64,000 bases of DNA from contig CAIULL010000072.1 in the NCBI GenBank assembly GCA_903899985.1, forward strand, positions 1 to 64,000. The letters are read 5' to 3'. This DNA is from an uncultured Schlesneria sp. GTDB taxonomy: Bacteria; Planctomycetota; Planctomycetia; Planctomycetales; Planctomycetaceae. How positions within the stretch are numbered: position 1 is the stretch's first letter; each line of letters opens with the position of its first letter. The translations under genes were made by a program, and so were the position numbers. The notes beneath the pieces are model-generated. The model was not told where the DNA came from, made no database searches, and saw only the letters and a list, made by a program, of their open reading frames with translations. Positions 30 to 63,825 of this stretch are shown here, in pieces.

Positions 30-169
30 CCAGAATTGTCAATTTTCTACTTTCTCATAACCACTCTCTGCCGCTTCGGCCCGCCCTCGGACTCGTGGTT
101 CTCTTCAATTCTGCACTAATTCCACCACCGAGAATTTGGTGTCCAAGTTCGAACGAGTTCGACGAGATC

Positions 170-246: not shown

Positions 247-290
247 ATCGTGATCCAGGCGATGCGACGCTTCGAAAACTGGTGTCAAAG

Positions 291-406
291 TTCGATCAAG
301 TTCGATCGACTTCGACCATTCCTCGTAATTCATAGGCTTTTCGTCACTTTTTCTACCGCACTCAAGTTCGATCGAGTTCGACGCAGTTCGATCAGGTTCG
401 ATGAAT
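291..406 (+). repeat. Composite array of 10-bp phased TTCGA units, copy A
   Basis: TTCGA occurs at 291, 301 and 311, then again at 367, 377, 387 and 397, each step exactly 10 bp. Between the two blocks is a spacer with TAATTCATAGGCTTTTCG. The 5' flank has CTGGTGTCAAAG. The same order (three units, spacer, several units) recurs at 62332-62451 and 62554-62664. An additional pair of units lies at 148 and 158 after a TTGGTGTCCAAG flank. The function is unknown. Confidence 0.75.
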
Positions 407-1141
407 TTCAGGTTTTCCAACTTTCGAATTGTCTCGATCGGAAACCCGTTTTATCGAGGAAACGCAAAGGAATGCGGATGTTGCAAATTCATTAATCAGC
501 AACAATTCTCTGAATTTCCCGTATTTCAATTCCTCTCCGTGACTTTTGTGCCTCCGTGCGAAAAACCGTCTTCTCCACAACATCAAACTCATCAAGCCAT
601 GAAATCATGGCTCGCGCTGAATGACGCACGTATTTGTTCTGTTCGCGCAGAATCACCCTCTGCAGTGCCGGTCAGCCTGCCCGCGCTAAATTCATGCCGA
701 GTTTTCAAAGAACAAAATCGCTGACGCGGTTGGCCGAAGCGGCTCAGAAAGTAGATGGGAAAATGTGGAAAGCAGGCCAGAACAAGAAAAAATCAATTTC
801 CTGATCCTTCTGGCGATCGCTCTCTCGTGACAACTTCCAGCCGACTTGAACTCCTCTGCGCCTCTTAAATCAAAAGAACGACAAAAATAATACAAATGCG
901 AGTGGCGACGGTCAATATGTGTGTCGTGAAAAAAATATATAAAAATGATGAAGGAGTCTTGAGGTGAGTTTTCGTGAATTGCCAGCAGAGGGCAACGGAA
1001 CTGGAGTGCGGCTTATTCCCGGGAACGGAGTGGCCAATCGATGGATGAAGAAATCAGAAACGGACTCAATTGCAAGCCAGACGAAATGTGCTCTAACATG
1101 ATCTGAAATGGTGGCGGCATGTGATTTTTCGGAGCGACTTG

Positions 1142-60855: not shown

Positions 60856-60949
60856 CCTCGTTCAACGCGCGAATGATTTCCCTATTTTAAACCCGTCATG
60901 CGACGCGCATGAAAACCGGCTGTGCCGGTCCTGACTCTTAATTCGGCGA
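60856..60949. repeat. 94-bp structured repeat, copy 1
   Basis: Identical to 61032-61125 except for three bases. It has two hairpins: TCATGCG/CGCATGA (60896-60912) and ACCGG/CCGGT (60915-60929). The start CTCGTTCAACGCGCGAATG and the end CTCTTAATTCGGCGA are fully conserved. Confidence 0.8.
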
Positions 60950-61031: not shown

Positions 61032-61125
61032 CCTCGTTCAACGCGCGAATGATTTCCCTATTATAAACCCGTCATGCGACGCGCATGACAACCGGCTGTG
61101 CCGGTCCGGACTCTTAATTCGGCGA
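61032..61125. repeat. 94-bp structured repeat, copy 2
   Basis: This copy lies 176 bp from copy 1. Its first hairpin is longer by one pair (GTCATGCG/CGCATGAC) because of an A-to-C difference; the second hairpin is unchanged. Confidence 0.8.
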
Positions 61126-61889: not shown

Positions 61890-62087
61890 CGCTTCAAGTC
61901 GCGAATAACAGTCATTCACGAAGGGCACTTCATCCCAACGGAGCAACGGCTCAAGTAAGTTCGCAGCAAGATTTGCAATAAAGCAACCAACCCAACGAAA
62001 CCCCACCGCCCCCGCGGCGGTGGTCAACAGGCCTGTGCACCAGTCCTAATCCTTATTCATTGGCACACAATATCTCATAAAGCCAGA

Positions 62088-62136
62088 ACAAAACGGGGAC
62101 TGGCTCCGAGTTTCGAGGTGCCTGTCCCCCGTTTGT
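62088..62136. repeat. Hairpin repeat with AAACGGGGAC arms
   Basis: ACAAAACGGGGAC (62088-62100) pairs with GTCCCCCGTTTGT (62124-62136), with one extra C, around TGGCTCCGAGTTTCGAGGTG. The wording is of the dispersed planctomycete type. Confidence 0.55.
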
Positions 62137-62158
62137 TCGCCAATATGTGATCGAAAAG

Positions 62159-62183
62159 TTCACCCGAGTTCGCCATCCTTCAC
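62159..62183 (+). repeat. Short 10-bp phased array (GTTCACCC type)
   Basis: TTC starts at 62159, 62169 and 62179 (TTCACC, TTCGCC, TTCACC). Confidence 0.55.
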
Positions 62184-62331
62184 CCGCTTGCGGTTCGTCA
62201 TCGGGAGGGCGAGGTTCCACCCGAGCCGAGCCGGATATCGGCCAGATGTTTCTTGCCTTGTCTACTTTCTACTCTCACAAAACTACTCTCTCGCCGCTTC
62301 GGCGTCCGAGCCCCGAAATTTGTTCAAAAAG

Positions 62332-62451
62332 TTCACCCGAGTTCGCGCGACTTCGACCATATCCCTTAATTCATAGGCTTTTCGTTATTTTTCCGTCACA
62401 AAAAAGTTCGCGCGAGTTCACCAGACTTCACCTGAGTTCGCGCGAGTTCGA
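62332..62451 (+). repeat. Composite array of 10-bp phased units, copy B (TTCRCSC type)
   Basis: TTC starts at 62332, 62342 and 62352, then a spacer with TTAATTCATAGGCTTTTCG, then TTC at 62407, 62417, 62427, 62437 and 62447. The layout equals copy A but the unit core is CGCG or ACCC in place of GATC. Confidence 0.75.
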
Positions 62452-62473
62452 CTCCAACCTGATGTCTTTGGCG

Positions 62474-62502
62474 AGCCGAGGTGCGTAAGCCCTCGGACTC
62501 TT
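62474..62502. repeat. 29-bp dispersed repeat, copy 2
   Basis: Identical to 1-29, located between composite arrays B and C. Confidence 0.7.
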
Positions 62503-62553
62503 GTTGTCTTCCTTTTCGCCGTAATCTCGCCTTTGGCAAAACTGGTGTCAAAG

Positions 62554-62664
62554 TTCGATCAAGTTCGATCGACTTCGGTCATTCCCCGTAATTCATAGGC
62601 TTTCGGCGATTGTCACACCGTTTTTTGCGGGTGTTCGAGTTCGACGCAGTTCGATCGAGTTCGA
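62554..62664 (+). repeat. Composite array of 10-bp phased TTCGA units, copy C
   Basis: TTCG starts at 62554, 62564 and 62574, then a spacer with GTAATTCATAGGCTTTCGG, then units at 62640, 62650 and 62660 (an extra one at 62634 is off phase). The 5' flank CTGGTGTCAAAG is shared with copy A. Confidence 0.75.
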
Positions 62665-63825
62665 TTAACTTAATATTCATCCTTCAAATTCATCGTTCAT
62701 CCAAACCGGATTTGTCATGTTTTCTTTACTCTGACAATTCTTCGTCCTTCCACTTTCAACTCTCTACTCTTGAGGAACTTGACGTCGGAAGTGTCGCTAA
62801 AGTTCCTCGGGTTCATGGAGCGGTAGCTCCTGGCGAACCGCTTGTAGCGGCTTTTAACTCTCTCGCCGCTTCGGCGCGCCGGTTTGAATTCAGTCCAAAA
62901 TGTCAAAGATCAATCATCATTGCCAGGTTGTGAATGCCGTACGGACAAATTCATCACTCAATCGCATCGTTTAACCGCGCCTCGAAGAGCAGCGGGTTTA
63001 TGCGGAGCGATGAACGCCGCCCGCACCCACATTGGCATGCGTTGCGTCCAAATCCCGTCACGGCAACGTTCGCAAGCGATCGGCTGAACGCCGATCCACC
63101 TGCGCCGCTGGCTGCGGGTTAAACAATCAGAAAACATCAGTCATGTCTGCGAAAACATCTTGCGACAAAAAAATACAAAAGCAGATGGCGTTAGTCAATG
63201 GAAAAACACAAATACCTTCCTAACGTTTGGAAGGTGCCCATGGGACTTCTCGAAACGAGGCCGAATCAACGTTTACAATCCGCAGAGACTCAGACGATAT
63301 TGGCTCTTCTGCCAGACCTACCCCCGAATTCGGGAGGCGCCATCTCCCAAATTGGGGGGAGCACCGAACTCACAACTCAAATAACCGGTATGGGAGCCAT
63401 GCGGCAACGTGTATGTGGCACTTGGTCGGACTGCCGCGCCCAACAAAAGCCCCTTTGTTGCGCCGAGATGCACGTTTCGTGGATCATGCGGACGACGCCC
63501 CATACTTTTTTTGCCTCCGCAGCAGAAGAACCTCACAGTCGTAGAGCATAAATCTTCAAAACAAGGCTGAGCCGACAAAAAGCCCGATTCCCCGCTTTGA
63601 CATCCACGCAACGGAGTGTTCAAGACGGAAAAAGAGTCAGTCATCACGTCTTTGCGTATCCTGACACCTTTTGCATTGTTCCGCTGTCCTTTTTGTTCCG
63701 TTCGTCTTAGTTCATCCGATATTTTTCAAACCGGGCCGTGGCAAGTTGTCGGGCGGGCGATTGCGCCTTACGATTGTGATTCGCCAACGCCTTACCTGAT
63801 TGCCAGATGTTCAAGACGAACGCTG

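Follow-up and report, generated by a model that had tools for sequence, protein, structure and literature searches.

What kind of intergenic element carries short repeats at exact 10-bp steps on both sides of a conserved core, and what could such an array do? The array in question, which we call locus A, comprises a left array, a core and a right array at positions 281-406 (minus strand, the predicted transcript strand) of the window, that is, the whole 64,000-nt stretch of uncultured Schlesneria DNA analysed here. The initial annotation took it for a composite element that might be a multi-site protein-binding array or a mobile non-coding element. From sequence comparisons we favour a different reading, to which we give about even chances: that the array is the distal part of one of a set of clade-specific, gene-less, rRNA-leader-like non-coding transcription units with phased binding arrays. 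A few related planctomycetes each carry dozens of these loci, all lacking genes, and the repeats are probably transcribed into long non-coding RNA, as they lie downstream of what resemble a promoter and a leader of the rRNA type.

At locus A the left array has TTC at 291, 301 and 311 and the right array at 367, 377, 387 and 397, and GA follows each of the seven, so that the TTCGA units first reported in two blocks at exact 10-bp steps hold at every coordinate. The spacer also has the 51-bp length originally given to it (316-366, with 56 bp from the last left TTC to the first right TTC), and the conserved text within it, the core TAATTCATAGGCTTTTCG at 326-343, recurs in the window as an exact copy at 62367-62384 and a copy with 2 mismatches at 62589-62606, making three copies where 0.05 would be expected by chance. 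Further TTC positions (319, 329, 340, 351, 407 and 415) had been missed, and a TTC profile matches the minus strand at 281-353 and 364-394; it also finds a weak remnant of a further array at 141-163 (minus, E 8.7e-4). Both additional core copies belong to locus B, where the core and the TTC profile together define a type II array element at 62325-62454 and a type I element at 62544-62665, both on the minus strand. The window holds other repeats as well. A REP-like hairpin (GAGCCGAGGTGCGTAAGCCCTCGGACTC) at 1-29 and 62470-62502 recurs between array copies in tandem composites; a long hairpin at 62085-62139 (GAACAAAA-CGGGGAC-TGGC...GCC-TGTCCCC-CGTTTGTTC), with similar text in loci L071 and L162, is apparently another dispersed intergenic repeat; and a block of about 90 bp (GTTCAACGCGCGAATGATTTCCCTATT ... 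AATTCGGCGA) is present twice, close together, at 60860-60949 and 61036-61125.

The host genome (G000, an 8.0-Mb draft of 296 contigs) contains the core with up to 3 mismatches at 27 + 52 = 79 places, compared with 0 + 2 for a reversed control. At up to 2 mismatches in 59 genomes, it occurs at 41, 42, 26 and 32 places in G000, G001, G004 and G005 and at one place in each of six others; dense copies are thus found in 4 of the 59 genomes, all of one genus. Four successive AGTTC-N5 units (1 mismatch allowed) are matched 117, 37, 62 and 63 times in these four genomes, in the same order, and once in the remaining 95 of 99, and reversed controls give 2 in G000, 3 in G005 and 1 in G058. In a scan of named genomes the motif lies in 36 stretches, all from uncultured Schlesneria MAGs (Umea2_bin-1599, Umea3_bin-3867 and AM-lipid-02-D2_bin-1310). 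The core, the phased arrays, and the promoter box and leader model described below are each abundant in these same four genomes. The viral contigs searched hold no exact match to either of two patterns, and plasmids none to window positions 62150-63300. Rfam has no match in the window at gathering score and, for six loci, nothing beyond miRNA families below threshold (best E 8.9e-7, 46 of 96 bits); the literature searched yielded no description of this array layout.

The copies share a well-defined anatomy. Among 84 host core matches at 4 mismatches, 66 are of a TTC type, 11 of a GTTGG type and 7 of other kinds, several of these last being chance matches. In the host, 123 of 131 steps in left arrays and 249 of 302 in right arrays measure exactly 10 bp; the unit phasing first seen at locus A thus extends to many copies, and the family is neither limited to the copies of the window nor randomly spaced elsewhere, either of which the initial annotation would have counted against a functional element. 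Left arrays mostly have 3 units and right arrays 2-9. A left array ends in CTTCGACCATTCCTCG, followed by the core TAATTCATAGG[C/G]TTTT, and the unit has the form [GC]TTC[GA]NNN[GA]A. Of 231 left units 166 have ends of the form TC....GA, as do 324 of 505 right units; exact 8-bp palindromes number 115 of 231 and 115 of 505, with 95 distinct forms among the 505 right units. Type I arrays use the vocabulary GATCGA, GATCAA and GACGCA, and type II arrays GCGCGA, ACCCGA and ACCTGA. Type III has the same core with 9-bp units such as TTGGCCAAG; its 85 steps measure 9 bp in 70 cases and 18-19 bp in a further 8. We rejected a coding role for the arrays, since a 10-bp unit cannot keep frame and orthologs differ by single units.

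The distance from the last left to the first right unit falls into discrete classes. Among 126 copies it is 54-56 bp in 32 and 64-67 bp in 90, with four outliers (47, 49, 85 and 145) and none at 57-63, under a rule by which a right array starting GTTCGAGTT or GTTTGAGTT is counted from its second unit; this rule moves 11 copies to 65-67, and without it 11 gaps are 59-61. The count leaves aside 8 of 134 spacers (type III or long, by a stricter left anchor), and copies with short flanks were skipped in both the 134 and the 126. When each short spacer is aligned to the nearest long one (pairs 80-95% alike, gap placement uncertain), the missing ~10 bp falls at several places, around columns 26-37, 45-50, 53 and 56, which looks like several independent one-turn changes. 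Gap classes about one helical turn apart make helical phasing on DNA plausible, and these apparent one-turn changes are the best evidence for phasing at the DNA level. At one locus common to G000, G001 and G004, whole 10-bp units differ in both arrays within the same region; units thus slip between orthologous loci with phase retained, and slippage explains part of the exact spacing. The proposal that all units face one side of the DNA is borne out only in part: the 10-bp steps and one-turn gap classes agree with it, but the sister type III arrays, with the same core at a 9-bp period, indicate that one face of B-DNA is not the whole rule.

The remainder of the locus lies on the opposite strand from that originally read. 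A fixed box is found 185-1365 bp downstream of the array (on the original strand) in 55 of 90 regions, and 17 of the 35 regions lacking it are cut by a contig or locus end. Its promoter-box pattern has 29, 38, 49 and 32 matches in G000, G001, G004 and G005 and none in the other 55 genomes, and the reversed control has none. A gapless alignment of 68 box copies reads, on the opposite strand, CATGAGCACCTTCCAAACGTTAAGAAA followed by TTGAC, 18 bases and TATTTT. The upstream box, of about 27 bp, is near-invariant across the 68 loci, with three columns reaching 2.0 bits, and 28 of the 68 copies match at least 4 of 6 positions in both promoter hexamers at one fixed register. At locus B this register places a sigma-70-like promoter, TTGACT-17-TATTTT, at 63170-63198 (minus), with the conserved upstream box CATGGGCACCTTCCAAACGTTAGGAAG at 63216-63242 (minus; promoter profile 63160-63245, E 4.5e-19). 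At locus A a sequence match gives a promoter-like TTGACC-17-TATTAT at 887-915 (minus), where the upstream box was not found and the promoter profile has no match. Because a generic promoter scan around locus B yields 3 candidates compared with 1.0 (sd 1.0) in shuffles, a single promoter is weak evidence and the case rests on the 68 copies. In two genomes (L048 and L103, second strand) an 835-aa gene has a solitary promoter box close by, with neither boxA nor array.

The interval from promoter to array contains a site of the form TTGATCTTTGACA(t/a)(c/t)T(t)GGAA that resembles boxA, for which a gamma-proteobacterial consensus GYTCTTTAANA and action of Nus factors are given in the consulted part of PMC5725501. 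Within 6 mismatches the site was kept in 48 of the 68 promoter loci, the loosest of these probably by chance; of the 20 left out, 19 have no boxA at this threshold and 1 is short or a duplicate. In a strand test that is independent of the leader model, TGATCTTTGA occurs on the predicted RNA strand in 31 of the 68 promoter-selected loci, with no occurrence on the opposite strand (0) or on either strand of a far-side stretch of equal length (0), and GNTCTTTGANA occurs on the RNA strand in 33 of 68 as against 0, 0 and 0 in the controls. The boxA-like sequences of the window are GTTCTTTGAAA at 703-713 for locus A (minus; leader profile 682-726, E 2.3e-5) and GATCTTTGACA at 62901-62911 for locus B (minus; leader profile 62864-62937, E 2.1e-13), the latter region matching a covariance model at 47 bits (in L120). 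As no 16S gene was found in G000, G001 or G005, the comparison with rRNA was made to the 16S leader of G004, itself an array genome, which has TGATCTTTGAAA after a TTGACT-17-like spacing and holds the 10-mer TGATCTTTGA; the 16S leader of G002 reads AGATCTTTGAAA. Promoter-selected loci thus possess, in 31 of 68 cases, a boxA that matches the rRNA leader of a close relative and lies downstream of a promoter on the same strand.

A hairpin follows directly after boxA, and its paired positions covary. Of the 48 boxA loci, 26 retained the hairpin end, and an unfitted alignment of 25 of them (L138 left out) has 28 double-change cells compared with 9.6 when shuffled, a count that includes one column pair that does not pair. 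A leader model run on 100 chosen loci gave 94 matches and 81 distinct sequences; in these 81, all 10 pairs have changes on both sides, and the count of double-change cells, which contains no such non-pairing column pair, is 90 as against 29 shuffled (0/500), with 7-22 in slid controls. On the RNA strand, G.U exceeds A.C by 53 to 21 in the alignment fitted to the structure, which leans to it, and by 23 to 9 in the unfitted alignment; this excess supports an RNA made from the strand of the promoter. Among 40 genomes the leader model matches 40, 49, 60 and 54 loci in G000, G001, G004 and G005; G017 has a single weak match (E 3.8e-4) and the other 35 have none, with at most 85 candidates scored per genome.

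The typical order of a unit is upstream box, promoter, boxA leader, hairpin and one to several array elements. Profile annotation of 149 clusters, which were chosen for an array, promoter or leader match and in which L140 and L144 are one place counted twice, gives 61 promoter-boxA-array, 41 array-only, 17 promoter-array, 13 boxA-array, 11 promoter-boxA, 3 promoter-only and 3 irregular clusters, and in 0 of the 149 does an array precede a promoter on the same strand. Many of the array-only clusters are at contig ends or are opposite-strand type III matches, the unit being palindromic; exceptions with ample flank are L063, L098 and L116. Where a cluster has multiple copies their orientation is uniform (43 of 43, none mixed). 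Inspection by eye of the downstream neighbours of the 68 promoters found no common gene, their kinds and directions being varied. On the original strand, the gene on the 5' side of the array is co-directional in 42 cases and opposite in 23 (n = 65, approximate calls by a home-made gene caller).

Positions of the units are in part common to related genomes: of 39 host units, 12 have 500 bp or more of flank in common, on the same side, with a unit of a relative, a lower bound, as only 27, 22 and 20 units of relatives were compared. The mobility suggested in the initial annotation is thus not borne out, and among features of a MITE neither element ends nor a clean empty site was established. A helicase query for empty sites matched a gene in other surroundings in G004. 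A kup query gave six close and two weak matches; the kup locus is occupied in G000 (L076) and G001 (L052), its upstream region in G005 carries, by eye, a type III element and a degenerate promoter box, and those of G002 and G014 have none of the patterns on the one strand searched, a search for which blanks at the minus-strand kup loci L193, L194 and L196 are uninformative. In 11 ortholog pairs (12 tried), identity counted with gaps is 85% for the upstream box and boxA, while the promoter reaches 73% and the rest 57-63%; per aligned base it is 80-86% both inside and outside the boxes, so that gaps make the difference, and the hints of selection come mainly from constant length and from how alike the boxes are among paralogues.

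The congener G006 presents a different picture. It has 82 + 77 = 159 type-III-like matches on both strands, around a related core GTTCCCTATTTCGTAG, with no match to the TTC core, the promoter box or the leader model, and an exact boxA in 2 of 18 loci on the wrong side or strand; 9-bp arrays are therefore more widespread than the promoter-boxA association. Its loci L237-L266 form a large family of their own, of 9-bp TTGGCCAAG arrays around the related core, and open frames cross the 9-bp arrays among the 10 loci looked at. A link to reverse transcriptases was considered and rejected: all 15 of the 15 congeners carry RVT_1, G002 with 15 matches and the other 14, among them the four array genomes, with 1-4 each, and it has no association with the arrays.

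Native left and right arms of the arrays pair no better than swapped arms (permutation p 0.08-0.77); the arms do not coevolve, and we rejected arm-arm pairing as the cause of the exact spacing. Selection on the RNA strand of type III stems was likewise discarded, as G.U and A.C number 38 and 45 with no wobble bias (59 scored of 72 candidate stretches, some of which are not true elements). The folding asymmetry of type II is mostly a matter of composition, and for type I the RNA strand has a modest folding advantage (mean z -1.6 compared with -0.6). Since the arrays have no clear RNA signature, they may act as DNA though seemingly inside a transcribed unit.

These results lead us to a model of how such a unit might work. 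The alignments document which parts a unit has and how they are arranged, that boxA is strand-specific, that the hairpin covaries, and that exact 10-bp units flank a spacer of quantised length; from these observations we infer transcription, antitermination, a binding protein and a biological role. RNA polymerase would start at the TTGACN-17-TATTTT promoter, and Nus factors, loaded at boxA, would sustain its processivity along an extended, untranslated body. Both flanks of the core in this body consist of TC....GA-ended units spaced by roughly a helical turn, and by analogy with ParR on split parC a small dimeric DNA-binding protein may occupy them in many copies. The transcribed, protein-loaded locus could then act as a regulatory, RNA-producing or chromosome-organising site. 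Seen in this light the composite element of the initial annotation is real as an array, but only the distal part of the locus had been seen, the rest being on the opposite strand. A multi-site binding array likewise fits the exact units, quantised gap and many copies, but the array is not free-standing, as it forms the distal part of an oriented locus.

How far do other explanations account for the same observations? The loci might be dispersed non-coding repeats that spread or slipped without host function, minisatellite-bearing and MITE-like or selfish, with their own promoter and leader and now mostly fixed. We regard this as rather unlikely, though it ranks first among the alternatives. 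It would fit the restriction to a narrow clade with tens of copies in each genome, the tandem composites with the REP-like hairpin, the gain and loss of whole units between orthologs, the loci that have neither promoter nor boxA, and G006 with its own expanded arrays. Such repeats sit less easily with an upstream box near-invariant across 68 loci, a strand-specific boxA, compensatory changes in the hairpin, spacer classes one turn apart, and positions common to relatives with at least 500 bp of flank in 12 of 39 cases.

The quantised spacer and exact 10-bp units are what one would also expect of an array that acts purely at the DNA level and is bound by a nucleoid, segregation or regulatory protein, as originally proposed, with transcription incidental. 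The TC....GA units with their 8-bp palindromes (115 of 231 left, 115 of 505 right) and the arrays that have no RNA signature point the same way, but the order and strand of the arrays are fixed relative to promoter and boxA, and the 9-bp type III has the same core, and we judge this reading improbable. Poorest of all is the prospect that the loci are long regulatory 5' leaders, or attenuators, of adjoining genes, which we think very improbable: a promoter, boxA and hairpin do precede a long untranslated stretch, but the gene beyond the arrays is not in the sense direction in 42 of 65 cases (by approximate gene calls), and inspection by eye turned up no neighbour gene in common. We therefore continue with the gene-less, rRNA-leader-like transcription unit with phased binding arrays as the preferred reading.

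Should that reading be correct, it would have implications for the range of boxA-bearing RNAs. Besides rRNA operons, boxA is documented for few untranslated bacterial RNAs in the parts of PMC5725501 and PMC7862264 consulted, CRISPR arrays being an example, and the 40-60 boxA-bearing leader matches per genome would add substantially to the non-coding transcripts that depend on Nus factors. Combined with the phased arrays, they make a concrete candidate, open to experimental test, for a chromosome-organising or regulatory system particular to a planctomycete lineage. It is a tentative proposal, possible rather than probable as the comparative data stand, that the loci form an undescribed bacterial class: many-copy, lineage-specific, rRNA-mimicking non-coding units that carry a transcribed, helically phased protein-binding array and serve as chromosomal regulatory or organising sites in uncultured planctomycetes.

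The array loci each fail a tested defining feature of CRISPR arrays and of rRNA operons, and for this reason we class them as neither; nor do we file them under parC. Like an rRNA operon leader they have a promoter, a boxA and then structured untranslated RNA, and the 16S leader of G004 shares their boxA 10-mer TGATCTTTGA, but they have no rRNA match (Rfam, window), their body consists of repeat arrays, and they have a dedicated upstream box and 40-60 leader matches per genome. REP/REPIN sequences, described in the part of PMC3116915 consulted as short dispersed intergenic repeats that are often clustered, share these traits with the array family; in contrast to REP/REPIN with RAYT, the core is not a REP palindrome, array clusters are uniformly oriented, and none of the 11 Y1_Tnp matches of G000 has a core or TTC array in the flanks examined. 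These Y1_Tnp (RAYT-type) loci are L146-L156, one of which (L152) has the REP-like hairpin. In R1 parC, according to the consulted part of PMC5016525, one ParR dimer binds per iteron and the middle is looped out. The resemblance of the array loci to split parC lies in two blocks of regular direct repeats flanking a spacer, but the array family occupies tens of chromosomal loci with no par-like neighbour noticed by eye, and its promoter is outside both blocks, hundreds of bp away. In CRISPR arrays a boxA lies ahead of a long untranslated repeat array, as stated in the consulted part of PMC7862264 (citing Stringer et al. 2020), and the array loci have the same arrangement; unlike CRISPR arrays, they are made of contiguous degenerate 10-bp units with no unique spacers, at many dispersed loci. 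The nearest analogies would thus be two: boxA-led CRISPR arrays for the logic of transcription, and split parC for the logic of the array.
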